A stretch of 53,539 bases of DNA. It comes from a virus. Positions within the stretch are counted from its first letter, which is position 1; every line of letters begins with the position of its first letter. Both the position numbers and the translations under genes were made by a program. The notes below the pieces were generated by a model. That model did not search any database. It was not told the DNA's origin and saw only the letters and a list, made by a program, of their open reading frames with translations. This document shows, in pieces, positions 27,435-53,539 of the stretch. The stretch lies in IMG/VR virus record IMGVR_UViG_3300033143_002559, positions 1-53,539 of that record. One strand, given 5' to 3'.

Positions 27435-29053
27435 ATACTTTGCCAGTCCCAGGCGGGTTTACGGTCAGCCTTGGTATTGGTTGCCCCGACAATTGGGTTA
27501 AAGCCAGCAAGCTCCATCGTGCCGAGCGTGGCGTCAACATCGGCCCCGGCACCAGACGCACTCACGGTTGGATTGTGCCCCTGGAGAACCATCGTACCAA
27601 GTGTTGGGTTTACCTTGATCTCGTTCAGCACATCGTAGATGTACGCGCCCATTTCCCACAGGCCGGTAGCGGTGCCTACGGTTGGGTTGAAACCAGCAAG
27701 AACCATAGCTCCGACTGGGTCTTGCTCCACCTCTGTTGGGCCGGTATCTAACCCGCCAATCCAATCAGTGTTATCAAGCTCAATATCATCAAAGTAAAGC
27801 TCAGATGTCGCACCCGGAACAGCGGAGCCACTAGCACTCGCGCCGCACCGAAGCGTGTCACACAAGGCCGCTGATTGTGCCCCGGTGTAATCACTACCGA
27901 CTGAGGTTCCGTTTACTTTGAGTTCGCCGCCGCCGTCTGAACCAGACCCGGCCTGCCAATGAAATTCAATAAGCATCCAGGTATCAAGAGCCGGGTCTTC
28001 AGCACACACGCCATCTAAGATCGTGGTGTTTCCAGACCCGTTCCAGTAAATACAACGCCACCTAAAGGCTTGGTCGTCTGCTTGCACCCTCAAATTAAGT
28101 TCCATGAGGGATTGGGTATCGTCTTTTATTTCAAATACCTTGCATGATTGATAATCTGTAGGCACATTGAAGGCTGCATTCACCTTAAGGTAACCCCTAA
28201 AATACACCTCATCCTGGTCAGCTACCGTCTTGTAAGCGTAAACACCATTGTTCGTACCATCAAACGTTATCTTCGCACCCTTGCTGCCGCTGTTGATGTG
28301 GGCAGGAGTCGAAGAAACGGTGAGAGTGTTTGACCCCTCCTCCACCTTAGATGTGAACTCAGTGGTAAAGGCATCGACTTCGGTCTCTATGCCGGATGCG
28401 AAAACCACACCTACTGGGCCTAGCCAGTCAGCATCGTCAGCACCAAAATTGTCAACGTCAAGGGTTGAGCTTCCAGACGTTGTTCCCTTGTAACATCCGG
28501 CATAAATCGTATCGTGAGTCTTCGATACCGATGTCATCGTGACATTGTTTGAATCCCATACCAAAACTCCCGAGTCGTTATAAACCCTGGCTCTTATGGT
28601 GTCGTCGCCCGTGCCACCATTGTTGTGCGAGTAAAGCTCAAACCGGTAGTATCCACTTGGTTTTGTGGCATAGCTGCTTGTTGATGATGTGTAGCCACCA
28701 TAGCCAAATTGTACCCTCCACGCCCAGTCCCCGCTTCCATCCACTATGGCCCTGAGTTGAGCTCCTTCATCATACGCAGTTTCACCAGCAGCCAAAATCG
28801 TTAACCCGCTTGAGTTCGGCAAATCAAGGCTAGAAACATCTATGTATGCACGAGCATAGATTGTTAATTCAGCCGAGATGTCCTTGTACACGCAGGCTTG
28901 ATCGTTTGTCCCGCCTAATGTGCAGCGTGCCCCGTACGTCCCTGTGTGTGGCGCAGAACTGGATGCCGCTACGGAATTGCCGGATTCAGTCAGCGAACCA
29001 GTTACGTCAGTGAGATCGCCTTCTTCAAAGTCGGCTTCAAATATGTTTGCCAT
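27419..29053 (-). CDS. Adhesin with two lectin-like domains and C-terminal short repeats, 544 aa
   Basis: Residues 1-215 form a concanavalin-like jelly roll starting NIFEADFEEGDLTDVTGSLT, and residues 220-430 a second, diverged copy (EVDAFTTEFTSKVEEG, then YFDDIELDNTDWIGGL). Both end in a D/N-x-D-W-x-G motif. A related domain occurs in the 824-aa protein at 19935. The C-terminus has three short repeats of the pattern G-x-M-x-L-x-G-x-N-P-x-V (VGAMVLAGFNPTV, LGTMVLQGHNPTV, LGTMELAGFNPIV), then a basic aromatic tail. Probable glycan-binding tail or head fibre. Confidence 0.65.
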   Translation of the reverse strand: MANIFEADFEEGDLTDVTGSLTESGNSVAASSSAPHTGTYGARCTLGGTNDQACVYKDISAELTIYARAYIDVSSLDLPNSSGLTILAAGETAYDEGAQLRAIVDGSGDWAWRVQFGYGGYTSSTSSYATKPSGYYRFELYSHNNGGTGDDTIRARVYNDSGVLVWDSNNVTMTSVSKTHDTIYAGCYKGTTSGSSTLDVDNFGADDADWLGPVGVVFASGIETEVDAFTTEFTSKVEEGSNTLTVSSTPAHINSGSKGAKITFDGTNNGVYAYKTVADQDEVYFRGYLKVNAAFNVPTDYQSCKVFEIKDDTQSLMELNLRVQADDQAFRWRCIYWNGSGNTTILDGVCAEDPALDTWMLIEFHWQAGSGSDGGGELKVNGTSVGSDYTGAQSAALCDTLRCGASASGSAVPGATSELYFDDIELDNTDWIGGLDTGPTEVEQDPVGAMVLAGFNPTVGTATGLWEMGAYIYDVLNEIKVNPTLGTMVLQGHNPTVSASGAGADVDATLGTMELAGFNPIVGATNTKADRKPAWDWQSIWRKW

Positions 29054-30786: not shown

Positions 30787-32432
30787 CAGTAGTCCCCCGG
30801 ATCACCAAGCAAGACGCCATCCGGCCACGTTGACCCTTCTAGCAACATCTCGTTGTACGGAGGTCCGAGAATTTCGCCAATGCCGATGCACGGAGAGTTG
30901 GACTTCAGGGTGAAGTCGTGGTTCTCGGCGTCGGTGAACTGCGGGTCATCGGGGATAGAGTGGGCGTCTTGCGGATTTCCAAGCCCGTCTGTGAGCGCCT
31001 GCCACTGTGCAAGCGTGTACCCGGTTGTGCCGAGCTTGATAAGCCCGACGCCATTACTATTGAAGCAATTATAATCAGAGTCGATGTCCACGAAGGTAGC
31101 GTCATTGCACCGCAGGTCTGGACCTGTTGATCCAGCAACAATGTTGTTTCTCAAATACACATCTATGGTGCCAGAAAGCTCAATCCCCCAGGAGCATCCG
31201 TAGACAACATTCCCGACAATGAAGTTCGTGCCATCCTGACCAGAAGCGAAGAACGTTCTAATGGAAGACCTTGATGTATCGGTCGCCCCCCATGTGACGT
31301 TGCCCATGATGGTGCAATGAGAACTACGAGACAGCCCGATGTTGCTGCCACCGTCGATGTTGTCATACACCATGTTGTGCTTGATCATGTTGTAATACGA
31401 GAACTCAAGAAGAATCTGCTGGATGGTCCCAGGCTGGCCGTCGAAGTCACCACCGTTTTCATAGATTAGGTTTTCCGATATGGTGTTCCACCTACAGCCC
31501 CAGTGATTAGGGTAAGCCCCGCCGCCATCCAACCTGATCGCACCAGAGTCGTTGTGGTGCCAGGTTGACTTGGTGAGAATCGAGTTATCCATCCCAAAGG
31601 CTTTGATGCCAGCGCCGTCGTTCGAAACGCCGTCGATGAAGACTTGGTGATGGATCTCGCAGCCCGTTACAGTCAACCGTTCAAGCTTGTTGACTTCACC
31701 GGCGCCAGTTCCGATTCCATCCCCTGAGTTGTAGGAAATGTGGCAAGAGTCGATGAGACCATCGTCGGAGTGTGCGGCCCACTTGATCCCCACGAAGTTC
31801 CACGAGACATCGCAATTGCTAACGATGCACCAGTCGCTATTGTTGAGGGCATAGATCCCAAGCCAATCTGAGTGCATAATCGTGAGACCATCAAATTTCA
31901 CGTAGTCAACGCCATCAAACCTAGCAACGTATCTACGTGAGCCTGATTCCGTGCCGGGGCTAGTGTAACGAGTATCTGGATCTGTGGCGCTGTACTGGTA
32001 GAGAATGTCCGATTCCCAGCACCAGTCTTGGTCTGCTGCCAGGTTCGCCGGAAGCGCCTTCTTAGCACCACGCACCCCATCAAGAAATACCATGATTGGC
32101 TCGTCGGCGGTGACGGTGGCCTTCCACACATTCGTATCATGTAAGGTCCAGCCGGTTATGATGTTCGATCCCTTGAATACAGGAGTGTCGCCTGGGTATG
32201 CGAGTACCTCGATGTAGTTTCCTATCGAACCCGAGCCTTGAGGAGTCAGATACCCCCGGTAATCTAATCCAGCAGCTGAATCGTCCGCACAATAAATTTT
32301 ATCTCCAGCCACAAACGTCTCACCGTTGAAAACACTCAAATTCATGCACTCGGCGACAAGGGTTGGGTCGCCATCTACAGCCGCTGCCTTGTTCGCCGCC
32401 GTGCCGTCTTCTCGAACAGTGTAATTAGGCAT
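30786..32432 (-). CDS. Beta-helix tailspike-like protein 2, 548 aa
   Basis: Paralogue of the adjacent 577-aa protein. It opens MPNYTVREDGTAANKAAAVD and ends WPDGVLLGDPGDY. The middle carries beta-helix repeats (GLTIMHSDWLGIYALNNSDW, CDVSWNFVGIKW, SCHISYNSGDG) followed by WNTISENLIYENGG and NIVAGSTGPD. The middles have diverged far more than the ends, as for modules with different glycan targets. The stop overlaps the next start (TGATGG). Two spikes suggest a two-receptor or branched arrangement on the virion. Confidence 0.7.
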   Translation of the reverse strand: MPNYTVREDGTAANKAAAVDGDPTLVAECMNLSVFNGETFVAGDKIYCADDSAAGLDYRGYLTPQGSGSIGNYIEVLAYPGDTPVFKGSNIITGWTLHDTNVWKATVTADEPIMVFLDGVRGAKKALPANLAADQDWCWESDILYQYSATDPDTRYTSPGTESGSRRYVARFDGVDYVKFDGLTIMHSDWLGIYALNNSDWCIVSNCDVSWNFVGIKWAAHSDDGLIDSCHISYNSGDGIGTGAGEVNKLERLTVTGCEIHHQVFIDGVSNDGAGIKAFGMDNSILTKSTWHHNDSGAIRLDGGGAYPNHWGCRWNTISENLIYENGGDFDGQPGTIQQILLEFSYYNMIKHNMVYDNIDGGSNIGLSRSSHCTIMGNVTWGATDTSRSSIRTFFASGQDGTNFIVGNVVYGCSWGIELSGTIDVYLRNNIVAGSTGPDLRCNDATFVDIDSDYNCFNSNGVGLIKLGTTGYTLAQWQALTDGLGNPQDAHSIPDDPQFTDAENHDFTLKSNSPCIGIGEILGPPYNEMLLEGSTWPDGVLLGDPGDY

Positions 32433-36968: not shown

Positions 36969-38847
36969 CGTCGATGACTCTTGCTTGGAGCTGTTGGATG
37001 ATGTTCGTGAGTTGGGCGATGGTTTGCGCCATAGCCTCGCCAGCCATTTTGGAACCCTCGATGTCGAGCTCATTCTTAACCTCCTGCATATCGAACTCCG
37101 CTAGGAATTCGTTGAGGACGAGATCATACACATCAAGGAAGTTTCCGGCGAGGGCAGCAAGTGGCCCGCCCTCAACAGCCACCGATCCCATCTCCGCCGC
37201 ACCGTTGAAGATTTCCGGTAGCTTGTCGACCATTGCCAGGATCTCTTGTTTCTTGATCGCCTTGGACATGGTTTGCGAGTTGACCTTGGTCTCGATGATG
37301 ATTTGGTCTTTCCAGTATCCCGGCGGGAACTCGATGGTCATGGCCTTCATCATCTCGCCAAGCTCCTCGTCCTGGGCGTCGATGAAGATTTGCATGGACT
37401 GGGGATTGAACTGGCGGTAGCGCGAGTATTGCATCTGGACGATGCGGGCGAGGAACTCCCGGTAGCGGGTCATCATCTCGAACAGGGGTTGCATGGCCCG
37501 CTCGAGGATGGCGCTGGTTCCGGTCGCGGTCGGCCGTTCCGCGAGCTCCTGGCCGAAGAAGGCCGGCGGGATAGAGGCGGCATCGTGCATGTGCTTGACG
37601 ATGCGCTCGAGCAGGTTGAGGAGGAAGCCAACATCGCCGGAGGCCAGGCGGACCTCCATGATCCCTTTGCGGAGATCGTCGATCATCGCATCCTCAACTT
37701 CGGCCAGGCCGGGGCCGAGTTCCCCGTTATCGAGGAAGTTGGAGAGTTTGAGGCGCTTGAGGGCGATGAGGAGCGGGTTGATCGCTCGCACGCCAGCGTC
37801 GAGGAGGATGTTCATAATCGCCACGTATGCGCGGTGGAGCTGATCCAGCACGGAGCAGAGCGATTTGCCGTCCATTGAGGCGAGGGTTGGGTGCCAGGCG
37901 AAGGTTGAGTACGGGCGGGGGAAGTCCTGGTAGAAGGGGCCATGCGCTGCCAGCCACGTTTTCTGTTTCAGGTCGAGGATGATGACGACCTCTTCGCCGT
38001 CGTAGACGGTGTAGGTCTCCATGAGGGAGACCTCCGAGAGTTCGGTCTTGTTCGCCTTGGGCTCAATCCCGTGGGCAGCATGGATCTCTTCCTTGGCGAG
38101 TTCGGCATCGGCATCCTCGCGGGCCTCACCGATCGACATAGGATCCAGGTCTTTGCGGTAGTAGTCCTTGTCCTGTTCGATCTTGATTTTCCCCGGCGTA
38201 CTCTCGAACCGCTCACAGAACCACCTTGCCTCATCGACCGATGCGGAGGGGATGGGGTGATAGATCCGGCGGGTATCGACAACGTAGGGGAAGCACCCCT
38301 CGTCCTCGATAATGGTTTTGGTTTGTTCAACGTCCTCGCCCATCTCATCGACATCCCAGTACCGGATTTTTCGCTCACGGAAGGACCAGGCGGTTTTGAC
38401 GACGGACTTGGTGAAGATTTGGGCGCCGCGGATCGAGTCGTTAACGACGGCCTCGTATTTCGAGCGATCGGCCATCCAGTCGATGAGGACATCGTGCGCG
38501 GAGGCCATTTCGGTAAATCCAGGCCGGCCCTTGCCGACGAAGATTTGATCCTGGGCGAACACTGGGTTGGAGATGTTCGACCCGGCGTGCCTGCAAATCT
38601 CGAACGTGATGGTGAAATCGAGTTGCGCGTCTTTGTCGCCGCGGGCCTTGGGATCTCCGGTGGCCCAGTAGTTTTCCTCGCAGGACGTCCATTCCGGCTC
38701 GAGGGTGTCCTTGCGGTTCTCCACCACCTCGTCGATCTCGTCACAGAGGGCGACAACGAAGGCATCGAACGCCTCATCTTCTCCGAGCTTCTTGACTAAG
38801 TGGGTTATTTCGTAGGTTTGCGGGGGTTTCCGTGTGGCTTGAGTCAT
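36871..38847 (-). CDS. Portal protein, 658 aa
   Basis: Dodecameric channel for DNA entry and exit at one capsid vertex. Length and layout fit P22-type portals: N-terminal helices, a wing domain (WAPFY-like FRERKIRYWDVDEMGEDVEQ and EDEGCFPYVVDTRRIYHP), stem and crown with long helices (LHRAYVAIMNILLDAGVRAI; ATGTSAILERAMQPLFEMMT), and a coiled-coil barrel (MAQTIAQLTNIIQQLQARV) at the C-terminus. It lies directly downstream of the large terminase with ATGA-like overlap, the canonical order. The barrel-like C-terminal coiled coil suggests regulated DNA ejection as in P22. Confidence 0.88.
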   Translation of the reverse strand: MTQATRKPPQTYEITHLVKKLGEDEAFDAFVVALCDEIDEVVENRKDTLEPEWTSCEENYWATGDPKARGDKDAQLDFTITFEICRHAGSNISNPVFAQDQIFVGKGRPGFTEMASAHDVLIDWMADRSKYEAVVNDSIRGAQIFTKSVVKTAWSFRERKIRYWDVDEMGEDVEQTKTIIEDEGCFPYVVDTRRIYHPIPSASVDEARWFCERFESTPGKIKIEQDKDYYRKDLDPMSIGEAREDADAELAKEEIHAAHGIEPKANKTELSEVSLMETYTVYDGEEVVIILDLKQKTWLAAHGPFYQDFPRPYSTFAWHPTLASMDGKSLCSVLDQLHRAYVAIMNILLDAGVRAINPLLIALKRLKLSNFLDNGELGPGLAEVEDAMIDDLRKGIMEVRLASGDVGFLLNLLERIVKHMHDAASIPPAFFGQELAERPTATGTSAILERAMQPLFEMMTRYREFLARIVQMQYSRYRQFNPQSMQIFIDAQDEELGEMMKAMTIEFPPGYWKDQIIIETKVNSQTMSKAIKKQEILAMVDKLPEIFNGAAEMGSVAVEGGPLAALAGNFLDVYDLVLNEFLAEFDMQEVKNELDIEGSKMAGEAMAQTIAQLTNIIQQLQARVIDDESQLVDIGGQVSDVPPAGMEPDGDQPPQASA

Positions 38848-40517
38848 CGTCTACCCCCACCTCTCACCAGTCCATAACGGACGGGCATCGGATGAACATT
38901 GGTTCCGTATTCGTCATCGCTCTCATCTCGAATATGGGTCGTGGAGTAGCGTTTGTCATCCTCTGCGTAGATCCACCAGTCAACGTGCATTGGCATGGTG
39001 TCCGCCAGCGCAGGGCTGTCTCCCATGATTGTTCCATCTGGTGCGATGTTGAGGTTGACCAGATGGGATACAACTTCTTCATGATCAGGGTATAGCACAA
39101 AAACCTGATGATCCGCAACGTAGGGATGGAATCTGTCGAGCAAGCGCCTGCCCTTGCTCTGCCCTCCTGGGGTAAACGGTTCGATTTTGATGTAGATGCT
39201 CCGCTTGACCATTTCCTGCTTCAGCCAGGCGCCAACCCACACTTGCATGGCGCCGGCCTCGGGGATGAGCAAGCGGGCATCCCACTTGATCCCCATGTCG
39301 AGGAGGGCGGTGATTTGCGCCATCGGGTTTGGGTGTTCCTCGCGCCAGTAGTCGAGCAGGCACCCGAAGCGCATTGACGGCAGCCACCAGAACGCGGTGA
39401 TACCGGAATCGTTGGAGTCTTTATTGAGTCCGCCGGTCGGATCCATCGCCACGGTAACGAAGCCGAGCGATGCTGGGTAAGCCACGCCGTCGATGTAGAT
39501 GGCTTGCAGTTTGCCGTTAGAGTCATGTGATCTGGTGTAGGGCAGGAAGTCCTCACGCCGGAAGCGCCGGATCCCCTCGTCGAGAAGGACGTTGAGCATC
39601 TGGTGAGCGAACTTGTAGGATCCCATTTGCCGGAGGGTTTTCTTGAGTCCCTCCATTGTTCGCCGCTCGGGGAAGATGGGTTGCCCCTCCTGCCACACGA
39701 GCTCGCGGTTGGGCTCCAGCACGCTCTCGTTGATGTACTCCTCGTTATCGGTTGGGAGTTTCAGGCCGAGGGAATCGAGGAAGTTATACCACTGGTCGTT
39801 GCAGTAGCATCCGAGAACCATCTTGCAGTAGTCGGGGCTCTTGAGGAGCTGTTCATAGTAGCCCTTCTCGCCGCCGGGCCAGAGGGTGCCGATGATGAGG
39901 AGGATGGAGTTTTCATCCTCGAACAGCGGGTCCAGGGTCTCAAGGAACTCGACGGCGCCGACCATCTCCGCGGCTGAGTTGGCGGCTTTGTTGTCCACAC
40001 CGTCGTCGACGATGATGATGTCGTAGTGCCCGCCGACGATACCGGACTTGACGCCGGCCAGGGTGACGGATGCCTCGGGGCTCTCGATGGTGCGCGTGAC
40101 GGAGAATTCCGTAGCGGTCCAGACGTTGCGCCTGGCATCCGGTGGTGGGACAAGGCCGGGGAAGTAGAGGCGCATGGCGCGGCCCTGGAGGATGTGTTTG
40201 ATCTTCCGGCCCTTCTTCTTCGCCTCGTCCAAGTTGTGCATACACATCAAGATACGTTTGTTTGGGTCGTTGATTAGGATGTGGACGATGTAGGCGATGT
40301 TGAGGAGCGAGGTCTTGAAGTGACCTCGAGGGACCATGCAGAGGAACCAGCGGTTTCCTTCGTCGAGCCCCTTTTGGAACCACATCGCCATAGCGAAGTG
40401 CAGCACGAGGGAGAGCTTGTGGAATTCGCAGAGATACCAGGCGGTCCAGAAGATGCTTTTCCGACACTTTGCTTGGATTTTCTTGATGTCAATGGGCGCT
40501 TCTTCGGCGCCTGGCAT
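38844..40517 (-). CDS. terL: Terminase large subunit
   Basis: 557-residue packaging ATPase-nuclease. Visible ATPase motifs: Walker A-type VPRGHFKTSL (residues about 63-72), Walker B YDIIIVDDGVD (about 180), and the coupling segment LLIIGTLWPGG (about 219). The nuclease domain starts around VTVAMDPTGGLNKDSNDSGI with the first catalytic Asp. GAGGAG precedes the ATG, which overlaps the small subunit stop (TGATG). It translocates DNA through the portal encoded next and cuts genome ends; end type (headful or cos) cannot be told from sequence, although the circular assembly suggests headful packaging. Confidence 0.93.
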   Translation of the reverse strand: MPGAEEAPIDIKKIQAKCRKSIFWTAWYLCEFHKLSLVLHFAMAMWFQKGLDEGNRWFLCMVPRGHFKTSLLNIAYIVHILINDPNKRILMCMHNLDEAKKKGRKIKHILQGRAMRLYFPGLVPPPDARRNVWTATEFSVTRTIESPEASVTLAGVKSGIVGGHYDIIIVDDGVDNKAANSAAEMVGAVEFLETLDPLFEDENSILLIIGTLWPGGEKGYYEQLLKSPDYCKMVLGCYCNDQWYNFLDSLGLKLPTDNEEYINESVLEPNRELVWQEGQPIFPERRTMEGLKKTLRQMGSYKFAHQMLNVLLDEGIRRFRREDFLPYTRSHDSNGKLQAIYIDGVAYPASLGFVTVAMDPTGGLNKDSNDSGITAFWWLPSMRFGCLLDYWREEHPNPMAQITALLDMGIKWDARLLIPEAGAMQVWVGAWLKQEMVKRSIYIKIEPFTPGGQSKGRRLLDRFHPYVADHQVFVLYPDHEEVVSHLVNLNIAPDGTIMGDSPALADTMPMHVDWWIYAEDDKRYSTTHIRDESDDEYGTNVHPMPVRYGLVRGGGRR

Positions 40518-43304: not shown

Positions 43305-44407
43305 GCAGGCACATCCTGCGTGCTGAACTCGTAGCTCATGGGGTCAGGGATTCCGAACCGCTCTTGCAGCGTCTTCCGCGCCCAGGTCTCGAATTTCACC
43401 TGGGGAGGGCGATGGGCCTCCATCTGCATCTTGTCCTCATCGTCGAGGGAGTTGTACAGGTCAGTCATCATGGCGTCGTGGACGCTGTAGAATTCCTGTT
43501 CCATGAGTCCTTTCGGCGTGTCGGAGTCAGCGAGGGCCTCAAGTTTCTCCGATGCCACATCAACGACGGTCTGTTGAGCATCCGTCAACCCGGTGAGCTT
43601 CATCAGCGTCATCGCGTGTTTCATAATGTGCTTCATTGTCTCCTCCAATGTTTCCGCATCTTCCGTGATCTGTTTCGGCGCCGGGCCCTTCTGGGCCTCC
43701 CCTTGTTTGTCACGATTCGTGATCCACGTCCGCGCCGCCGCCTTCCAGTTCTTCATCGGGGTCTTCGTAGATCCGATCAACCACCCCTTCGCATCGTTAG
43801 CGTCAACGAAGTCCGACCCATCGAACCGAGTCTCGCCCTTCTCGTCCAGATACGCCTGGACCTCCTCGACCGAGGGTTTGACCCACCCCTGTTTCTTCCC
43901 CTTTACAATCCCCTTCTTCTTAACATCACATACATCTACATCTACATCTACACCTACAACTACAGACGAACGCTCCTGTAACACACTGTCACGGTCTGAT
44001 AACGCTAGATCGTTAGGAACCGTTACATCACCGTTACGACCCTTATCCCTGAACCGTTGTTGCCTGATTCTACCCTGTTCTAGCTCCCTCTGATAGCTCG
44101 CTCGTTGCCGATATTCCCTGTAATTTACGATGTGCCATAGGTTCTGACCTACCGATACGATCCGACGACCCTCTTCCTTCTGACTCGTCGAATACGGGTC
44201 CGGTTTCGAGAGCTCCACCAACGCATCCTCCGCCTGCCCTACCGGCATGTTCGCTACCCTCGCTAGATTAGCCGCCGTACACCTGAAATTGCCCTCCTTG
44301 TCGCACATCAGCAGGATCGTGACCCACCCCCACTTCACATGAACCTTGTGGTCATTGATTGAAGACCTCAACATATCGCTCCACAGCAGTACGAAGTGGT
44401 CACTCAT
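43301..44407 (-). CDS. Replication-initiator-like protein, 368 aa
   Basis: N-terminal 115 residues form a winged-helix domain of the type found in phage replisome organisers and DnaD-like initiators: FVLLWSDMLRSS-IN, VHVKWGWVTILLMCDKEGNF, LARVANMPVGQAEDALVELS and YREYRQRASYQREL. Residues 150-170 hold an acidic Val-Asp run (VVVGVDVDVDVCDVKK) encoded by a TACATC microsatellite. The C-terminal half is helical and charged (ETMKHIMKHAMTLMKLTGLT). Proteins of this type bind an origin, often inside or next to their own gene, and recruit a host helicase loader. It is the only replication gene seen. Located next to the control region. Confidence 0.65.
   Translation of the reverse strand: MSDHFVLLWSDMLRSSINDHKVHVKWGWVTILLMCDKEGNFRCTAANLARVANMPVGQAEDALVELSKPDPYSTSQKEEGRRIVSVGQNLWHIVNYREYRQRASYQRELEQGRIRQQRFRDKGRNGDVTVPNDLALSDRDSVLQERSSVVVGVDVDVDVCDVKKKGIVKGKKQGWVKPSVEEVQAYLDEKGETRFDGSDFVDANDAKGWLIGSTKTPMKNWKAAARTWITNRDKQGEAQKGPAPKQITEDAETLEETMKHIMKHAMTLMKLTGLTDAQQTVVDVASEKLEALADSDTPKGLMEQEFYSVHDAMMTDLYNSLDDEDKMQMEAHRPPQVKFETWARKTLQERFGIPDPMSYEFSTQDVPA
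43931..43966. repeat. TACATC hexamer microsatellite
   Basis: Three perfect TACATC units followed by TACACC, TACAAC and TACAGA, six hexamers in all. On the minus strand this codes the Val-Asp run of the replication protein. Hexamer expansions keep the frame, so repeat-length variation would change linker length without breaking the protein. In some phages origins are direct repeats inside the initiator gene. Confidence 0.7.
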
Positions 44408-44621
44408 TGACCGCCTCCTCGTTCTCGTTGGCCTCGGCCTCTAATGCCATGAACGTCTCTGCCGCCCTCGAGAACGGCCTGGACGCCCTCGCCTCCCACA
44501 TCGGGACCGTTGACTTGCTTACCCCCAACATCTCCGCCAGCGCCTCCTGTGTGATGCCCATGCGGTGTCTGAGATTGATGACTCTGTGCATCCAGTCCAT
44601 TTCGTCCATTAAAAGACTCAT
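44400..44621 (-). CDS. XRE-family HTH regulator, 73 aa
   Basis: Start chosen at ATG 44621 with GGAGG eight bases upstream; the longer frame from a TTG is rejected. Residues 14-50 are a helix-turn-helix: LRHRMGITQEALAEMLGVSK followed by STVPMWEARASRPF, the recognition-helix pattern of XRE and Cro/CI-type proteins. Acidic C-terminal tail (LEAEANENEEAVNE). First gene of the leftward operon and adjacent to the control region with several DNA dyads, so autoregulation and a switch role between arms are likely. Confidence 0.8.
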   Translation of the reverse strand: MSLLMDEMDWMHRVINLRHRMGITQEALAEMLGVSKSTVPMWEARASRPFSRAAETFMALEAEANENEEAVNE

Positions 44622-44640
44622 TCGACAGCCTCCACTACTC

Positions 44641-44668
44641 AATTTACTACTAATTATCTAAAAGTCAA
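44641..44668 (-). promoter_or_regulatory. Candidate leftward promoter
   Basis: On the minus strand TTGACT (44663-44668) and TAAATT (44641-44646) are separated by 16 bases. The expected start lies about 13 bases upstream of the XRE start codon, so the leader would be very short and nearly only the ribosome binding site. The match to a sigma-70 -35 is good and to a -10 moderate. It would drive the whole leftward arm. Confidence 0.4.
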
Positions 44669-44790
44669 GAGGTCTAGTGAGGCATAGGAGGATCGAAAAT
44701 AGGTGCAAATTATGGGAGGGGGGTTTGTTCCTCCGTCCTCGTCCGGCTCGGGGGTGGACGGTGGCGGTTGGAGTCGGTGCCTCGTTGGAT

Positions 44791-44812
44791 AGTGTACTCC
44801 ATAGGCTACACT
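44791..44812. repeat. Dyad AGTGTA-N10-TACACT
   Basis: Perfect six-base arms separated by ten bases, so the two half-sites are 16 bases apart. The right arm TACACT overlaps a -10-like position 16 bases from a weak TTGGAT box. It may be an operator for one of the HTH proteins. Chance occurrence of one six-base dyad is not rare. Confidence 0.4.
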
Positions 44813-44983
44813 CTCACCCCCACCACCACCACTGCTCGACGTCCTCCCGTCTCAGGTTTACATAATGCACGTTATCGGCAGCTAGGAGAGGACCACCCAA
44901 CGCACCAGGACCACGCCACGGCATGCACCATCTCATGTGGGCCCATACCACCCCCACCCAAGAGGGGAGTAGGTGAGACCGAG

Positions 44984-44998
44984 TGACGTACAACGTCA
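44984..44998. repeat. Dyad TGACGT-ACA-ACGTCA
   Basis: Two perfect six-base arms around a three-base centre, a 15-bp operator-like palindrome in the gene-free region. Compact odd-centred dyads of this length fit binding by a dimeric HTH repressor. Confidence 0.5.
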
Positions 44999-45015
44999 TT
45001 CGCCAATTGACAACG

Positions 45016-45043
45016 ACCACGGTAGTACTGCGTTCACCGTGGT
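45016..45043. repeat. Inverted repeat ACCACGGT-N12-ACCGTGGT
   Basis: Perfect eight-base arms (45016-45023 and 45036-45043) with a 12-base loop. It can act as a wide operator or form a hairpin in single-stranded DNA or RNA. No T-run follows on the plus strand, so it is unlikely to be a terminator. A TTGACA sequence lies just to its left (45007-45012) without a matching -10. Confidence 0.5.
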
Positions 45044-45144
45044 TTCGGGAATCGCCACCCCAAGCCACCTCCCGCCGCACCAGCTCGGCCCATGCTACCC
45101 AACCGAACCCCACCAAGATCCACCCACCACCAAGAGATTAGTAC

Positions 45145-45158
45145 CGGACTCGAGTCCG
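45145..45158. repeat. Perfect 14-bp palindrome CGGACTCGAGTCCG
   Basis: A fully self-complementary 14-mer. Palindromes this long without a spacer are uncommon by chance and suit binding of a symmetrical dimer. It lies between the 28-bp inverted repeat and the candidate rightward promoter. Confidence 0.5.
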
Positions 45159-45194
45159 TGACCTGGTGCCCACCAACCCAACCCAAACCAACCA

Positions 45195-45223
45195 TTGACA
45201 TCCTAACCGACAAGGTATACCTT
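45195..45223 (+). promoter_or_regulatory. Candidate early rightward promoter with overlapping operator
   Basis: TTGACA (45195-45200) is a perfect -35; TATACC (45216-45221) is a fair -10 with a short 15-base spacer. A perfect 12-bp palindrome, AAGGTATACCTT (45212-45223), covers the -10, an arrangement typical of repressed promoters. The start would lie about 160 bases before the first rightward gene (45387). Confidence 0.5.
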
Positions 45224-45386
45224 TGTAGGTAGGCCCGGGCGCCATGCCAGGGCAAACCACAACCGAAAGGAGCACCAGCCCGCCACCCGGGCGGGACCAA
45301 CCCCCAAATACTACTAGCGTGGATCCTGGGGTGCGTCCCGCCCGTTGCTTTCATCACCGACCGAACACCGGAAAGGAGAGGATGGA

Positions 45387-45677
45387 ATGACCACGCGCAC
45401 CGCAAAACCGGGAGAGTTTGACGCATGGGTAGCAGCGGAGGTTGAGAAAATTAGAAAAGGAAGGAGTGACGGCATGTTCACGAAGCCGAACGACAGGTAC
45501 AAGGTTTGGGTCGTGATCGAGAGACAGACACCAGACGACGGAGAGGATATCTACACGGACATTTGCAGCCCCGTCGACGTCGGCCCGCCGCTTGGATACA
45601 ACACCCTCACGGCCGCGATCGAGGTGTTCTACGACATCACCGGAGAACGCCCGGAATGGAACGTGGAGGAACCATGA
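45387..45677 (+). CDS. Hypothetical early protein, 96 aa
   Basis: First rightward gene after the control region. Start at 45387 chosen because AAAGGAGAGGATGGA precedes it; the longer frame from 45345 is rejected. Helical N-terminus (MTTRTAKPGEFDAWVAAEVE), beta-like centre (RYKVWVVIERQTPDDGEDIY). Overlaps the next start by ATGA. No family recognised. Position suggests early expression and a host- or DNA-interacting role. Confidence 0.6.
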   Translation: MTTRTAKPGEFDAWVAAEVEKIRKGRSDGMFTKPNDRYKVWVVIERQTPDDGEDIYTDICSPVDVGPPLGYNTLTAAIEVFYDITGERPEWNVEEP

Positions 45678-46003
45678 CCACCTACCGCTACCAGTACCAG
45701 GAGCATCCCCACAACCACGGCACGCCAGAGCCCCACACGATCACCAGGGAGCAACTGTTAGCGCGTCTCACGGTCTGGAGAGGACACCCCGACGGCCTAG
45801 CGTCGGATCTGTTGCACCAGCTGGAGAACGGACGCCCCCACGGACAATGGTACAGACTTGCGCCGTTCGAGTCCTACCGCGTTGACATTGACCACCAGGA
45901 GCCCACCATCCCCCGAGACGTAGCCTGTGTCTCGACCGCGGAAGAGCAATTCATAGACGACCACATCGGGCAATCGGTTGATGACTTGATGGACCCTTGG
46001 TGA
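45674..46003 (+). CDS. Hypothetical early protein, 109 aa
   Basis: Starts MTTYRYQYQEHPHNHGTPEP at 45674 (ATGA overlap). Rich in His, Gln and Tyr; C-terminal half acidic (EEQFIDDHIGQSVDDLMDPW). No motif recognised. Part of a coupled run of small early genes between the control region and the first rightward terminator. Confidence 0.55.
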   Translation: MTTYRYQYQEHPHNHGTPEPHTITREQLLARLTVWRGHPDGLASDLLHQLENGRPHGQWYRLAPFESYRVDIDHQEPTIPRDVACVSTAEEQFIDDHIGQSVDDLMDPW

Positions 46004-46007
46004 CACC

Positions 46008-46274
46008 ATGAACACCACGACAACCGAAACCACGCTCCTTGAAGCCCTGCTACACGACATCGAACACCGGATTTACGACACCGTGGCCGAACACCTCGAG
46101 CACAGCCTGCCGCGGGACACTAGCGCGACAATCGCAGCCGCGGCCGCCCATGCCGGTAGGAAACGAGCGAGACTACTGCTAGCCCGCCGATACTTTTGCG
46201 CTTCCCCTACCTGCCCCGGATACCCATTCAAAGCGAGCGACCACGCCCACCCCGCCCGAACGTGCCCGCCATGA
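46008..46274 (+). CDS. Hypothetical early protein, 88 aa
   Basis: N-terminal helices (TTLLEALLHDIEHRIYDTVA), an Ala/Arg-rich middle (IAAAAAHAGRKRARLLLARR) and a Cys pair at the C-terminus (CASPTC ... C). The stop overlaps the RadC-like start by ATGA. Its N-terminal MNTTTT is repeated at the start of the RadC-like protein, probably reflecting coincidence of the start-region code. Unknown function. Confidence 0.55.
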   Translation: MNTTTTETTLLEALLHDIEHRIYDTVAEHLEHSLPRDTSATIAAAAAHAGRKRARLLLARRYFCASPTCPGYPFKASDHAHPARTCPP

Positions 46275-46762
46275 ACACCACCACAACCCGCTACGCCATG
46301 CGCCTTCACACCGTCAGCGTGGTATGCGACCACGCGCAACCGGACAAGGACGGGATCATTGGCTACCAAGCCGACAAGCCGGAGAACGCTGGACGGCTTG
46401 TCCTCGACCTGCTCGCGACCGTCGACCCCGACGGGGAGACATTCGGCATTGTCACCCTTGACGGACGCCACCGCGTTACCGGGTTCAAGCTCTTGACCCA
46501 AGGCACCAGGACCCAGGCACCCGTGGACGGCCGAAAGCTCTTTCGGGCCGCGATGAAAATGGACGCCGTGAGCGTGATCCTATTCCACAACCACCCAAGC
46601 GGAGACCCCGAACCATCGCGGCAAGACCTCGACTTGACCCGGAGGCTAGTGTTAGGCGGAAAGGTCGTCGGAATCGACGTCGTTGACCACATCCTGACCA
46701 CGCCCAACGACCGTTGGGTATCGCTACGATCCACACGCGCCGATGTGTTCTCAGACGCATGA
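46271..46762 (+). CDS. RadC-like JAB domain protein, 163 aa
   Basis: Start at 46271 (ATGA overlap). JAB/JAMM metal site visible: E56 in GETFGIVTLDGRHRV, then H106-N-H108-P-S-G-D-P-E-P-S116-R-Q-D119, the canonical H-x-H-x7-S-x2-D, and a following LVLGGKVVGIDVVDHILTT. It lacks the N-terminal HhH domain of cellular RadC, as do most phage and plasmid versions. JAB domains of this type are metalloproteases or deubiquitinase relatives, often found with polyvalent or anti-restriction genes on mobile DNA. Actual substrate unknown; likely acts early on host or defence proteins. Confidence 0.85.
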   Translation: MNTTTTRYAMRLHTVSVVCDHAQPDKDGIIGYQADKPENAGRLVLDLLATVDPDGETFGIVTLDGRHRVTGFKLLTQGTRTQAPVDGRKLFRAAMKMDAVSVILFHNHPSGDPEPSRQDLDLTRRLVLGGKVVGIDVVDHILTTPNDRWVSLRSTRADVFSDA

Positions 46763-46779
46763 AGAAAGGAGCAAGACCG

Positions 46780-46983
46780 ATGCCACACGCCACCGTGCGA
46801 ACCTGGACCGACAACCACATGGACGAGATCATTTCAGCCGTGGAGAGCGGCGAGTACATGGGCTTTTGTACCGCTTGCGGCGAAGAAGCGTACGGGATCG
46901 AGCCCGATGCCCACGAGCACAAGTGTCCCGCATGTGACGCCCGCGCAGTCTACGGAGCCGAAGAATTGTTGTTGTACTGCTAA
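46780..46983 (+). CDS. Zinc-finger protein, 67 aa
   Basis: Start chosen at MPHATVRTWTDNHMDEI (46780) with AAAGGAG nine bases upstream. The C-terminal half has CTAC and CPAC knuckles (residues about 30-55) spaced by EEAYGIEPDAHEHK, a small zinc ribbon that is likely structural. Phage microproteins of this kind are often host-factor binders. Function unknown. Confidence 0.65.
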   Translation: MPHATVRTWTDNHMDEIISAVESGEYMGFCTACGEEAYGIEPDAHEHKCPACDARAVYGAEELLLYC

Positions 46984-46992
46984 CGCCCCTCG

Positions 46993-47018
46993 AAGGCCCG
47001 TTGCCCGTGGCGGGCCTT
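46993..47018 (+). other. Hairpin AAGGCCCG-N10-CGGGCCTT
   Basis: Perfect eight-bp GC-rich stem (46993-47000 with 47011-47018) with a ten-base loop, ten bases after a stop codon and just before the next ribosome binding site. No U-run follows, so it is not an intrinsic terminator; it may protect the upstream RNA 3' end after processing or cause attenuation. Confidence 0.5.
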
Positions 47019-47051
47019 GTGGGGGCTGTAGCCCGGAAAGGAGCGAGAACA

Positions 47052-47429
47052 ATGGAAAACGGCGCAGGAATCGACCATGTTTGGCCGGCGGACGACATCC
47101 CACCGGACGCGGGGCCGCAGGAGTATTGCGGGGCGTGTGGGGACTTTATCGAGTGTTGCGACGGGCACGAGGACGAGGGACCAGAGCTCAAGCTAACCCA
47201 AGAGGACGCGCCACGGGAGCAGGGGGAGATGTTCAAGAACCTTCCCCAACGCGCAAGCAACGAGGAACACGTTAGCGATGGTGGGGAGCGTTGCCCGTTC
47301 TGCCGGTCGGATGAGATCGAAGGAGGGGAGGTGTCAACGGGCGGAGGTAGCGCGTGGCAGGGGATGAGCTGCCGTTGTGGAGCGACATGGTACGACCATT
47401 ACACGCTTCACGGGTACACGAAACGTTGA
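47052..47429 (+). CDS. Zinc-binding protein with two cysteine-rich sites, 125 aa
   Basis: Start at 47052 (MENGAGIDHVWPAD) with AAAGGAG upstream. The first site is YCGACGDFIECCDGH (residues about 25-39); the second is CPFC ... CRCGATW near 82-113 (ERCPFCRSDEIEGG; SCRCGATWYDHY). The second is a common phage zinc-ribbon type (CPFC-x-S, CRC-x-A-x-W). An acidic middle joins them. Function unknown. Confidence 0.65.
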   Translation: MENGAGIDHVWPADDIPPDAGPQEYCGACGDFIECCDGHEDEGPELKLTQEDAPREQGEMFKNLPQRASNEEHVSDGGERCPFCRSDEIEGGEVSTGGGSAWQGMSCRCGATWYDHYTLHGYTKR

Positions 47430-47442
47430 AAGGAGAGAGGGC

Positions 47443-47760
47443 ATGAACCAGGAACAGAGCATCCGAGAGATCGACGAGAGCGTACTTATCAAGCTGGTGG
47501 TTGACGGGGCGGCGGATATGGCGATGGTGAAGGAGACTCTCACCCTAGCCGATGAGCTTGCCAGTCAATCCGCAATCTACGCCGGCCGCGCCGCGGACGA
47601 GATCCGCCGAGTGATCGAGCGGGGGAGCGGGGCGAGGTGGTACGAGAAAAGCACCCGGTCGGACTGGAAAGAGATCCAAGCGTTAGCCCTGGCCGCGGGA
47701 ATCAACGCACAGATGACCATTTACAGGATCAGAGAAGCGGCGGAAAGGTTGACGCCATGA
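47443..47760 (+). CDS. Helical early protein, 105 aa
   Basis: Start at 47443 (MNQEQSIREIDESV) behind GAAAGGAGAGAGG. All-helical, charged: LVVDGAADMAMVKETLTLAD, then ALALAAGINAQMTIYRIREA. Overlaps the LPD29-like gene start by ATGA. No family recognised. Likely acts with the LPD29-type protein by coupling. Confidence 0.55.
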   Translation: MNQEQSIREIDESVLIKLVVDGAADMAMVKETLTLADELASQSAIYAGRAADEIRRVIERGSGARWYEKSTRSDWKEIQALALAAGINAQMTIYRIREAAERLTP

Positions 47761-48347
47761 CCGACTACAGCTATCTGACCGTGACCGAGGTTGCGAAGCT
47801 GATTCGCAAAGCACTCAAGGAGGCGAGCCCAGGAGATAAGTTCTCTGTGCGATCCTCCAAGTATGCCGGCGGATCTTCAATTGACATATCATGGACCGAT
47901 GGACCCACCGAGGACCAGGTGAGAGAGCTGGCATCGAAGTTCGAGGGATCCTATTTCGATGGGTCGATTGATTACAAAGGCTCGAAGTACCACACGCTTG
48001 ACGGTGAGCCCGTCTCGATCCTCTGTGATTACATCTTTTACCGCCACGAGAGCTCGGAAGCGGCATTAACCACCGCGATCATCGCCGCGGTCATGCACTA
48101 TGGGGCGTTCAACGTACCAACGGTGGAGGATTTCAAGACGGGTCACTCCTGCAACACCACGCCGATAGGTAACGCGCAGGGCGAACCGAATTGGTCGTGG
48201 TCGAACATCATTCGCCGCACCATCGAAAAGAAAGAAGACTGGACCGAATCACCGCCCGGCCTCCTCCCGTCACCCACAGCCGAGCGTATTCAGAGTGCCG
48301 GGGACGATGGCTACGGGCAGGGCAGAACCGGGAGGGTTTCAGCATGA
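47757..48347 (+). CDS. LPD29-type (large polyvalent protein-associated) protein, 196 aa
   Basis: Residues 5-100 match the pattern I know for LPD29: TVTEVAKLIRKALKEASPGD, KFSVRSSKYAGGSSIDISW, TDGPTEDQVRELASKF, and SYFDGSIDYKGSKYHTLDG. LPD domains occur in plasmid and phage polyvalent proteins. Here the domain stands alone with a C-terminal tail (WTESPPGLLPSPTAER). C-terminal region after residue 150 is disordered. Molecular function is not known for the domain; in mobile elements it travels with RadC/JAB proteins, as here (46271). Overlaps the next gene by ATGA. Confidence 0.8.
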   Translation: MTDYSYLTVTEVAKLIRKALKEASPGDKFSVRSSKYAGGSSIDISWTDGPTEDQVRELASKFEGSYFDGSIDYKGSKYHTLDGEPVSILCDYIFYRHESSEAALTTAIIAAVMHYGAFNVPTVEDFKTGHSCNTTPIGNAQGEPNWSWSNIIRRTIEKKEDWTESPPGLLPSPTAERIQSAGDDGYGQGRTGRVSA

Positions 48348-48544
48348 AGATTGTAATTGAATTCAGCACCGACAACGCAGCATTTCAAGATGGCTACTTT
48401 TTGCCGGAAATAGGCGATGTGATTCTGACGAAGGCATACAACGCCATCCACGACAACCGGCACCAGTACGAAAAATGGGAGGAGAAAATCCACGACAGCA
48501 ACGGGAACACGGTGGGAACCGTCACCGGGGAAGGTGCCCAATGA
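48344..48544 (+). CDS. Hypothetical early protein, 66 aa
   Basis: Starts MKIVIEFSTDNAAFQDGYFL (48344), ATGA-coupled to the LPD29-type gene. A beta-strand followed by a helix (YNAIHDNRHQYEKW). I recall small M-K-I-x-I-E-F-x-T-D-N-A-A-F-type proteins encoded just after LPD29-like proteins in other mobile DNA, so a partner role is plausible. No biochemical function known. Confidence 0.6.
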   Translation: MKIVIEFSTDNAAFQDGYFLPEIGDVILTKAYNAIHDNRHQYEKWEEKIHDSNGNTVGTVTGEGAQ

Positions 48545-48798
48545 GCAAAGCCGTAGCACTCCCCATTTCAAGGGCCGCGAAGTGGTTGCCGAAGCGAGAC
48601 AAGCGCTGGTTCTTGGTGGCCTTCCAGGGTCCCGCGGGACTGTACGCGATCCAGAGCCTACCCGACGCACGCTATCAGGTTCACCGACTCATGCGAGAGG
48701 ACCCACCGCGCCCCGTGGCAATGAGTGAACCGTTTATGACGCCCGAGGGGGCGCGGCAATTCGCTATGAAACTGGCAGAAGGCGTCGAATCCCAGTAG
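48541..48798 (+). CDS. Hypothetical early protein, 85 aa
   Basis: Starts MSKAVALPISRAAKWLPKRD at 48541 (ATGA overlap). Basic N-terminus, beta-like centre (RWFLVAFQGPAGLYAIQSLP) and C-terminal helix (MTPEGARQFAMKLAEGVESQ). Last gene of the first rightward unit, 20 bases before a strong terminator. Function unknown. Confidence 0.55.
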   Translation: MSKAVALPISRAAKWLPKRDKRWFLVAFQGPAGLYAIQSLPDARYQVHRLMREDPPRPVAMSEPFMTPEGARQFAMKLAEGVESQ

Positions 48799-48818
48799 CC
48801 CACCACCCACCCCGCACG

Positions 48819-48841
48819 AGCCCCCGAGAGGGGGCTTTTTT
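48819..48841 (+). terminator. Intrinsic terminator of the first rightward unit
   Basis: AGCCCCC (48819-48825) and GGGGGCT (48830-48836) form a seven-bp stem closed by a GAGA tetraloop, followed by a run of six T. The stem can extend weakly with GCACG and CGTGC outside. One of the cleanest terminators in the window; it separates the early genes from the next promoter. Confidence 0.92.
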
Positions 48842-48934: not shown

Positions 48935-48963
48935 TTGACATCATATCCGACGTGCCCTATCTT
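48935..48963 (+). promoter_or_regulatory. Promoter of the second rightward unit
   Basis: TTGACA (48935-48940), exact consensus -35, 17-base spacer, TATCTT (48958-48963) as -10. CTTGATATAACAAG, with CTTG/CAAG arms, starts inside the -10 and could be an operator. The HTH gene begins 38 bases after the -10, with a Shine-Dalgarno-like AAAGGGGG before its ATG. Confidence 0.7.
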
Positions 48964-49001: not shown

Positions 49002-49223
49002 ATGCAAAGCGACGGATACGATGGACGCGGGAGCCCTCGAAGGTTCATACGTCAGAAGGAGATAGCCGACGAACTCGGGATCAACCGTTGCACGATCGGC
49101 ACATGGATGGACAAGGGGATCTTCCCCTACATCCTCATCGCCGGCCGGCGGAGAGTGACCAGGGAGCTCTACGAGGGATGGCTACTCGAGAACACGGAGC
49201 CGGGCGTGGGGCCCGAAGGATGA
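49002..49223 (+). CDS. Helix-turn-helix DNA-binding protein, 73 aa
   Basis: MerR/excisionase-type HTH: residues 15-60 (RFIRQKEIADELGINRCTIG, TWMDKGIFPYILIAGRRRVT) show helix-turn-helix plus a wing containing the F-P-x-x-x-x-x-G-x-R-R pattern typical of excisionase and HTH_17 proteins. First gene after the strong promoter, with an operator-like dyad over the -10, so it may repress its own unit. An Xis role is unlikely because no integrase is seen. Confidence 0.75.
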   Translation: MQSDGYDGRGSPRRFIRQKEIADELGINRCTIGTWMDKGIFPYILIAGRRRVTRELYEGWLLENTEPGVGPEG

Positions 49224-49558
49224 ACGAGACGTGGGGGCTTTTAATCGCCGCGGGGGTATGTGGGCTGGCAACAGCGTGGATATTCTCCGGCCTCTTTGAA
49301 GAATGGCTGTACGAATACCCGAAAGTGAGGCAAGAAAATGAAGATGGAGCTGGAAGATACAACTTACTCGGGCCAGGTGGAGATCATTCCGGCGGAACCG
49401 TCGATGGGCATCATGGAGCGGCCCTACACGGGGGCAGAGATCAAGGCCCAGGTGAACATGATCCAAGAGGTGATGGACGCCGTGATGAAGGACGGGCACC
49501 ACTACGGGGTCATTCCGGGGACAGGCGGCAAGCCCACCCTGTTGAAGCCGGGGGCTGA
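49220..49558 (+). CDS. Possible small membrane protein overlapping the Sak-like gene
   Basis: ATG at 49220 overlaps the HTH stop. Residues 4-28 form a membrane helix (TWGLLIAAGVCGLATAWIFS), followed by FEEWLYEYPKVRQEN, which is protein-like. From residue 40 the frame lies inside the next gene and its composition (Gly/Asp/His/Arg-rich) looks like an out-of-frame shadow. A functional product would need only the first ~45 residues, so the C-terminal part may be a neutral extension or the stop may have been lost. Moderate to low confidence. Confidence 0.4.
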   Translation: MNETWGLLIAAGVCGLATAWIFSGLFEEWLYEYPKVRQENEDGAGRYNLLGPGGDHSGGTVDGHHGAALHGGRDQGPGEHDPRGDGRRDEGRAPLRGHSGDRRQAHPVEAGG

Positions 49559-50438
49559 GAAGCTGAACCTCACGTTCCGCATCTCACCAAGGATCGTCGT
49601 TGAGGACCTTGGGGGCCCCGACGAGATCCGCTACAGGGTGCTGTGCAAGGCGTACCACATCGTCTCGGGGGACTTTCTTGGTGACGGCATTGGGGAAGCG
49701 AGCTCAAACGAGGAGAAGTACAAGTGGCGGCGCTCGGTGGTCAACGCTGAGTTCGACGAGACCACGGAGGATCGGCGGCGCGACGTCTACAAGAAGAACC
49801 GGCAGGGTGCCTACGTCAAGGTGAAGCAAGTACGCACGAACCCGGCAGACATCGCCAACACGGTACTCAAGATGGCGAAGAAGCGGGCAATGATCGACAT
49901 GACACTCACCGTTACGGCGGCGTCAGATGTGTTCGCCCAGGACTACGAGGACATGACGCCGGAGATGCGCGAGGATCTCGGCCAGGAGGAAGAGGGGATC
50001 AAGGAGCCGGAGCGCAAAAGCGAGAAGAAACCGCCCGCGAAGAAGAAGGCGCCGCCCAAGAAGAAAGCGGCGCCGCCCAAGAAGAAAGCGGCGCCGCCAG
50101 GTGACGACGCTCCGCCATGGGCAGGCGATGACGTGCCCGACCCGGAGCCGCCGCCGGCAGAGGAAGAAGAAGAGGACGAGGGGGCCGAGGCGCCGATTGA
50201 GGGCGACTGTTTCACCGCAGTCGTTGAGTCGGTGGTGTCGAAGAAGAAGGGCACAGGGGAGCGCGGGGATTGGGAGTTGTTCGTTGTTACCCTCTCGACC
50301 GGGGACAGTCTCTCGTGCTTCGACAAGGGCCTCGTGGCCGATGCCACGGCCGCATGTGAAGAGGGCGTGCTGTGCAACGTGTTCTACAGCGAGAACCAGT
50401 ACGGGTACACGCTGACGGCCTTGGAGGTGATTGGGTGA
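49338..50438 (+). CDS. Candidate single-strand annealing protein (Sak-like) with lysine-rich linker and OB-like tail
   Basis: 366 residues. Residues 35-210 form the core of a phage family I associate with annealing or Sak-like recombination proteins: DGHHYGVIPGTGGKPTLLKP (52-71), EKLNLTFRISPR, and TNPADIANTVLKMAKKRAMI (167-186) before a TATAASDVF-like end (TVTAASDVFAQD). Residues 225-255 are a histone-like Lys/Pro run (PPKKKAAPPKKKAAPP). After an acidic segment the last ~80 residues (EGDCFTAVVESVVSKKKG, then LFVVTLSTGDSLSCFDKG) look like a small beta-barrel, possibly OB-fold. It would coat or anneal ssDNA ends made by the nuclease encoded next (TGATG overlap). Family assignment is by recall only. 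Confidence 0.65.
   Translation: MKMELEDTTYSGQVEIIPAEPSMGIMERPYTGAEIKAQVNMIQEVMDAVMKDGHHYGVIPGTGGKPTLLKPGAEKLNLTFRISPRIVVEDLGGPDEIRYRVLCKAYHIVSGDFLGDGIGEASSNEEKYKWRRSVVNAEFDETTEDRRRDVYKKNRQGAYVKVKQVRTNPADIANTVLKMAKKRAMIDMTLTVTAASDVFAQDYEDMTPEMREDLGQEEEGIKEPERKSEKKPPAKKKAPPKKKAAPPKKKAAPPGDDAPPWAGDDVPDPEPPPAEEEEEDEGAEAPIEGDCFTAVVESVVSKKKGTGERGDWELFVVTLSTGDSLSCFDKGLVADATAACEEGVLCNVFYSENQYGYTLTALEVIG
50049..50098 (+). repeat. 21-bp tandem repeat coding the Lys-rich linker
   Basis: GCGCCGCCCAAGAAGAAAGC-G occurs as two perfect 21-base copies (50049-50069 and 50070-50090) and eight bases of a third, encoding APPKKKA units. Repeat-number change would lengthen or shorten the linker by seven residues in frame, so the linker may vary between relatives. 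Confidence 0.75.
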
Positions 50439-51031
50439 TGGACCCCACCATACGCCTTGGGCCAAACTGCCGCTTCATCGAGGAGAGCCACACCTACTAC
50501 ATGGACGACGTGCCGGTGCCCAGTGTCACTCAGGCGCTAGTGGATGCAGGGATCATCAACACGGAGTTCTTCACGGCGTGGGGGCGCATGAGGGGCTCTG
50601 CGGTCCACAAGGCTACCGAGCTCTACGACCAGGACGACCTCAACGAAGAGACGCTCGACCCGGCCATCTCGGGTTATCTCGAGGCGTGGAAGAGGTTTAG
50701 GAGGGAATTCAGGCTCGAGATCGAGGAGATAGAGCTTGAGATGTACCATCCGGGCTCGAAGTACGCGGGGACGCTCGATCGTGCGGGCGTGGGACACAAT
50801 GGGAAAGATCGCGTCATTGTGGACATCAAGACGGGGGTTCTGACGCGGGCGGTTGGGTTGCAACTCACAGGCTACGCGGATCTCTACCAGGAGATGACAG
50901 GCAAGATCGTAAACAAAATCTACGGAGTCCAGTTGAAGGAGGATGGGTCATATCGAATGAGGATGTATCCGCTGGACTTCGCAACATGGAGAGGCGTTCT
51001 TGCCGTCAGCCAGTGGAAAAATGAGAGATAA
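50438..51031 (+). CDS. PD-(D/E)XK exonuclease (RecB/Cas4-like)
   Basis: 197 residues; the ATG overlaps the stop of the annealing-protein gene (TGATG). Catalytic pattern: H57 (RGSAVHKATE), D114 (GTLDRAG), D129-x-K131 (VIVDIKTG), and Q142 (LQLTGYADLY), the RecB/Cas4-type arrangement H, D, (D/E)xK, QxxxY. Together with the Sak-like partner it forms a lambda Exo/Beta-type recombination pair: the nuclease chews ends, the partner anneals the strand. RusA (1469) would resolve the joints. Short compared with RecB but typical for phage exonucleases. Confidence 0.85.
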   Translation: MDPTIRLGPNCRFIEESHTYYMDDVPVPSVTQALVDAGIINTEFFTAWGRMRGSAVHKATELYDQDDLNEETLDPAISGYLEAWKRFRREFRLEIEEIELEMYHPGSKYAGTLDRAGVGHNGKDRVIVDIKTGVLTRAVGLQLTGYADLYQEMTGKIVNKIYGVQLKEDGSYRMRMYPLDFATWRGVLAVSQWKNER

Positions 51032-53350: not shown

Positions 53351-53539
53351 ACACTCTACTGGGAACAATAGTCGTCATGTTGGTGACAACGGCGCTGATT
53401 TTCGGAGTCCCGATGCTGTTCCAGGGCGACATGGAGACTCGGACGATAGCACTTGATTACAGGCCCATGTTGCCGGAGGGTGATGAGGTCACGACAGCAC
53501 CGATGGAGCCAGCCCCGTCACCGTGGCGTGGGTTGGCTG
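53347..53539 (+). CDS. Membrane protein, 5' part only (relative of the gene at 223)
   Basis: Begins MNTLLGTIVVMLVTTALIFG, clearly homologous to MKTLFGTLAAMLVTTALIFG at 223. It diverges in the first 78 bases and is identical from 53426 to the contig end (302-415 at the other end). The frame has no stop before the window ends. If the contig is circular this is the same gene read across the join, and the first 301 bases represent another allele; otherwise it is a tandem duplicate. Same one-base-shift overlap issue as at 359-466. Confidence 0.65.
   Translation, partial: MNTLLGTIVVMLVTTALIFGVPMLFQGDMETRTIALDYRPMLPEGDEVTTAPMEPAPSPWRGLA
53426..53539. repeat. 114-bp terminal direct repeat, right copy
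   Basis: Identical to 302-415; the contig stops at its end. If joined at the repeat, the circle is 53,124 bp long and the first 301 bases are redundant or an alternative allele. Confidence 0.9.

Follow-up and report, generated by a model that had tools for sequence, protein, structure and literature searches.

Stand-alone RadC and LPD29 genes in a probable early run of accessory genes in a mosaic tailed phage

A RadC/JAB protein and an LPD29-type protein are encoded in a single plus-strand run of ten close or overlapping ORFs (45387-48798) in the DNA analysed here, a single viral record of 53,539 bases, identified as a tailed-phage genome and referred to below, at its full length, as the window. 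The set belongs to a known kind, the early runs of accessory genes that mosaic phages carry. In the relatives sampled, nothing marks RadC and LPD29 as a dedicated pair and, as the pair is not conserved, the genes are best seen as ordinary mixed early accessory genes rather than as a new counter-defence unit. Overall, the explanation that we on balance prefer is a mosaic early operon carrying unlinked RadC and LPD29 genes, in which LPD29 would take part in DNA handling and RadC would act as a hydrolase.

Layout of the genome and of the early run

The features referred to in this analysis are as follows.

3744-10481, minus strand: giant late protein of 2245 aa, LPD38 domain at the C-terminus (E=6e-33)
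38844-40517, within the large minus-strand structural half: terminase
44400-44642, minus strand: Cro/CI-type HTH protein, probable repressor (HTH_3, 2.2e-6; phrog_8 and phrog_4 repressors)
44643-45386: control region of ~745 bases without convincing genes, adjoining the HTH repressor-like gene
45387-45677, plus strand: small early gene, 96 aa, good Shine-Dalgarno
45677-46003, plus strand: small early gene, ~109 aa, start uncertain by a few bases
46008-46274, plus strand: 88-aa gene, stop overlapping the RadC start (ATGA, 46271-46274)
46271-46762, plus strand: RadC/JAB protein, 163 aa, single-domain (PF04002, 2.3e-32)
46780-46983, plus strand: zinc-ribbon protein, 67 aa, four Cys
46985-47026, plus strand: strong stem-loop that lacks a T run (-36.4 kcal/mol; the 77-nt stretch has z -2.1)
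47052-47429, plus strand: Cys-rich protein, 125 aa
47443-47760, plus strand: 105-aa gene, stop overlapping the LPD29 start (ATGA)
47757-48347, plus strand: stand-alone LPD29 protein, 196 aa, a single compact alpha/beta domain (PF18847, 4e-23)
48344-48544, plus strand: 66-aa gene overlapping the LPD29 stop (ATGA), weak phrog_9027 match
48541-48798, plus strand: 85-aa gene, last of the run, joined by overlap to the 48344 gene
48818-48837, plus strand: intrinsic terminator followed by a T run, closing the early run (z -2.7)
48935-48963, plus strand: sigma-70-like promoter-like site of the next unit, TTGACA-17-TATCTT (10/12 matches)
49002-49223, plus strand: excisionase/AlpA-like HTH protein (phrog_66, 1.5e-9)
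49338-50438, plus strand: putative single-strand-annealing-type recombinase with a Rad52-like core and an OB-like C-terminus (phrog_10048)
50444-51031, plus strand: PD-(D/E)XK exonuclease (phrog_298, 8e-27; PF12705)

The genome is laid out with a minus-strand structural half set against a plus-strand early side. The structural half also includes two tandem right-handed beta-helix proteins (29053-32432, minus strand), which are probable tail or spike proteins, and the LPD38 protein is a candidate polyvalent protein of the phage type in the same genome as the RadC/LPD29 run. The final 163 bases (53377-53539) repeat positions 253-415 at 96 % identity, with more than 100 bases at the very end identical, and the contig probably represents an almost complete genome, circularly permuted or terminally redundant, that was joined across strain variants. 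Near-identity DNA searches of phages and plasmids gave no match. Near relatives found via the terminase (L004-L006) stop short of the early region, and they are therefore uninformative on early gene order.

The run is termed early from its layout. It would form one early transcription unit of the phage, probably controlled by the repressor encoded on the opposite strand. A candidate promoter, TTGACA-17-TACCTT (45195-45223), was read by eye in the control region; its TANNNT -10 element falls outside the scoring of the scanner used. The control region also contains a stem-loop near 45288-45344. In the scanned region, promoter-like sites are no commoner than chance (two found, 1.9 expected), and hence the case for 48935-48963 as a promoter comes mainly from its position.

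Within the run, stop/start overlaps chain the 46008 gene to RadC, and the 47443 gene to LPD29 and on to the 48344 and 48541 genes. The stem-loop at 46985-47026 separates a RadC half, which ends with the zinc-ribbon gene, from an LPD29 half, and GC skew at third codon positions runs from -0.09 to -0.41 in the RadC half and is mixed thereafter. The position of the stem-loop and the skew are compatible with a join of two pieces, without proving one. The run would have been assembled by ordinary mosaic exchange, with a solo RadC gene and a solo LPD29 gene brought together by chance.

The small genes give few leads. Family searches with the 45387-45677 product returned nothing above cut-off, and no phage relatives were found in searches with the products of 46008-46274 and 47443-47760. 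Relatives of the zinc-ribbon protein that are 43-69 % identical were found in 60 viral contigs, and at eight of these 60 loci (L248, L269, L271, L272, L276 and L299-L301), apparently from two lineages, RadC lies just downstream, within ~1.5 kb. A module made up of RadC and the zinc ribbon was considered and not adopted, as seven of the eight appear to come from a single lineage, in which the order is reversed. Lar-like restriction alleviation was likewise considered for the Cys-rich protein at 47052-47429, for which the match was below threshold only. An Rfam search gave no credible match, and no PADLOC model matched, noting that PADLOC covers mainly defence rather than counter-defence.

The RadC and LPD29 proteins

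The range singled out in an earlier note on this DNA, 46271-48544, extends from RadC through the gene after LPD29, and its first claim, that RadC/JAB and LPD29-type proteins occur in one run, is borne out by matches far above chance. RadC scores 111.9 bits against PF04002, for which the curated cut-off is 22.1, and has a relative of known structure in the PDB (2qlc, E=8.6e-16). The residues of the JAMM metal site (E56, H106, H108, S116 and D119) are invariant in an alignment with 20 viral relatives. The N-terminal HhH region is absent, and the match to NF000642/TIGR00608 covers only positions 108-209 of 212 and scores 99.7 bits, whereas the equivalog cut-off is 180; as judged from its sequence, the protein is not a full-length bacterial RadC. 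Because the metal residues are kept, the HhH region is lacking and the score is below the equivalog level, it is best described as a short RadC-type metalloenzyme, solo and probably active. It has this form in common with the RadC proteins that phages and plasmids carry in solo form (PF04002, phrog_10276), which are short, lack HhH, are found on mobile DNA and share the JAB core and the E-HxH-S-D site. We take this group to include the YeeS/YfjY/YkfG type of E. coli prophages.

The LPD29 protein scores 82.4 bits against PF18847 (curated cut-off 27). It is similar over its full length of 196 aa to the LPD29 proteins that occur solo in phages and plasmids (PF18847, phrog_15549, 'LPD29 domain-containing protein'). 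Its relatives were found in conjugative plasmids and in the best 80 viral contigs, and most of them are 36-47 % identical to it. For the viral search, a tighter alignment was used in place of an over-diverse one. An AF2 model built from a 48-sequence alignment (pLDDT 89.7, pTM 0.84) matched no solved structure at E<=0.001, while its matches in a viral library at the same threshold were LPD29-type and unnamed proteins. As no solved fold was matched, a role in DNA handling is one that we infer from its gene neighbours.

Both families belong, as the earlier note had it, to the repertoire of polyvalent proteins and mobile DNA, and solo phage versions have been described (PMC5512222). The domain vocabulary is that of the polyvalent proteins of Iyer et al. 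2017 (PMC5512222), but those carry at least two effector or processing domains per polypeptide whereas RadC and LPD29 are here separate, single-domain proteins. That they stand alone with small genes after a control region was correctly described, the ten-gene run following a gene-poor stretch of ~745 bases.

Recurrence of the pair and the neighbours of LPD29

The earlier note had proposed that the group may be an undescribed early counter-defence unit, and had set association of the genes across relatives as a check beforehand. The viral scans made for this purpose rest on short peptide patterns, with the best 80 loci kept, and for many of the loci compared one flank has less than 10 kb of sequence. 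First scans of viral sequences with single proteins had given one distant locus for RadC and one for LPD29. Among the best 80 viral loci with full-length LPD29 relatives, none had RadC within <=10 kb (0/80), and RadC was also absent from the 48 of their records that were searched whole (0/48). In the other direction, an LPD29 domain of any kind was found at 3/80 of the best viral RadC loci (L028, L029 and L100), and a search of 50 whole viral RadC records found the same three (3/50). Two of these, L028 and L100, have LPD29 as part of a far longer protein (447 or 474 aa). For background, 41 records with the recombinase of this phage carry neither RadC nor LPD29, and the difference between 3/80 and 0/41 is not significant (Fisher p=0.55).

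In bacterial genomes, RadC was found at one of 12 LPD29 loci. Plasmid records with RadC number 2240 and those with LPD29 number 378, and RadC lies near LPD29 in only one of 17 sampled plasmid regions (1/17), in pAsal5. That region (104722-119060, L237) includes RadC, a 627-aa DUF3560/LPD29 protein, a DNA methylase, a YeeU-type antitoxin and an antirestriction gene. Hence, the association did not appear across relatives, and the proposal of an undescribed unit is unsupported.

The neighbours of LPD29 in viruses were counted at the 56 loci with >=3.5 kb downstream. An ERF annealing protein lies downstream in 50/56 and a YqaJ exonuclease likewise in 50/56, and a DUF1376-type protein is encoded divergently upstream in 38/52 (families confirmed on L148). 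The link to ERF and YqaJ is largely that of a single lineage, since clustering at 55 % identity places 71 of the best 80 viral LPD29 loci together (at 70 %, there are 15 clusters in all). In other lineages, LPD29 lies near YqaJ (L120) or SSB (L151), and in L028 it has downstream an AAA_24 ATPase, which we read as a Sak4-like recombinase. Solo LPD29 beside ERF and YqaJ recurs through L102-L181 and is not mentioned in the papers found.

In the window too, genes for a putative annealing protein and an exonuclease follow LPD29 at no more than a few kb, though a terminator stands between it and the recombinase and, against a close link, the 41 records that share this recombinase have no LPD29. Its immediate neighbours in the window are the RadC-group genes rather than the ERF and YqaJ genes of the main virus lineage. 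The family of the 49338-50438 protein appears as 'hypothetical protein' in phage records and has no Pfam model. We consider its members to be probably annealing recombinases because the predicted core (AF2, pLDDT >90) is RAD52-like and the C-terminus OB-fold-like; the best Foldseek match is human RAD52 (E=7e-4, probability 1.0), with a low TM owing to unordered parts. The PD-(D/E)XK exonuclease adjoins the same recombinase in 21/43 relatives.

In plasmids, the surroundings of LPD29 fit the link to anti-defence that had been suggested for this family. In two IncN plasmids, LPD29 is found beside antirestriction genes (ArdB family and ardR), with ssb in one of them, a position that we read from the gene order as the leading region. 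In Providencia, LPD29 follows an antirestriction gene, and PsiA is also there. LPD29 thus occurs in plasmid leading regions with anti-defence genes of the kind described by Samuel et al. 2024 (PMC11541004), whereas the host element here is a phage.

Likely roles of the gene products

From these phage and plasmid neighbours, LPD29 would most likely handle incoming or replicating DNA, aiding the annealing recombinase and exonuclease of the phage. More specifically, and tentatively, it could be an unrecognised DNA-handling cofactor, common to the annealing-recombination operons of phages and the leading regions of plasmids. Its fold would be one without a solved counterpart, and it would help fresh single-stranded or broken DNA to survive just past entry. 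RadC, in which the metal site is evident from the conserved residues, would most likely be a zinc-dependent JAMM-fold hydrolase, its target being some macromolecule of the host or the phage early in infection.

As plasmid LPD29 genes adjoin antirestriction genes, a role in counter-defence fits as well, and for LPD29 DNA handling and counter-restriction are not mutually exclusive. The run may therefore be an early counter-defence island whose genes act singly, sharing a promoter and timing and no joint mechanism, with RadC removing a host-made protein conjugate or processing DNA, and LPD29 and the small Cys-rich proteins blocking restriction or a similar defence. We regard this as possible but rather doubtful. 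Besides the IncN and Providencia contexts, it is favoured by pAsal5, in which RadC, the LPD29 protein, the DNA methylase and the antirestriction gene lie within ~8 kb, and by the listing of RadC/ArdB modules as phage-like morons (PMC12458937). However, none of 50 viral RadC records carries ArdB, and a phage module of RadC and ArdB was rejected for these records; the lack of a PADLOC match, the recombination genes that are the commonest phage neighbours of LPD29 and the sub-threshold level of the Lar similarity of the 47052 gene also argue against it.

That RadC is instead a DNA-processing enzyme, working as a nuclease or recombination factor together with the neighbouring recombination module, is in our view improbable. 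A nucleic-acid role was proposed by Iyer and others from domain fusions (PMC5512222), and the neighbouring unit does encode an annealing protein and an exonuclease, but according to a 2025 structural review the structural relatives of the RadC-like domain are JAMM metalloproteases, with no nucleases among them (PMC11981726), and RadC is absent from the 41 records with the same recombinase. The repair role of RadC is disputed in the literature, the phenotypes of E. coli radC being taken here as they are related in PMC5512222 and PMC11981726.

A single undescribed counter-defence complex of RadC, LPD29 and the small partners is very improbable and mostly refuted: the genes do share one short transcription unit here, and L028 and pAsal5 carry both within ~2.5 kb on one strand, but the relatives show no association in either direction beyond such rare cases, the LPD29 domains of L028, L100 and pAsal5 are in proteins of 447-627 aa, unlike the short solo form, and the small partners of RadC and of LPD29 were not found together elsewhere among the relatives searched.

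For the preferred reading, a mosaic early operon, the co-occurrence of RadC and LPD29 itself matters little, as these are two known solo genes of mobile DNA with no conserved link. What is useful here is the lead on LPD29, which in phages is most often found beside ERF and YqaJ and in plasmids lies in the leading region, and these neighbours and this location make an early role in DNA handling directly testable.
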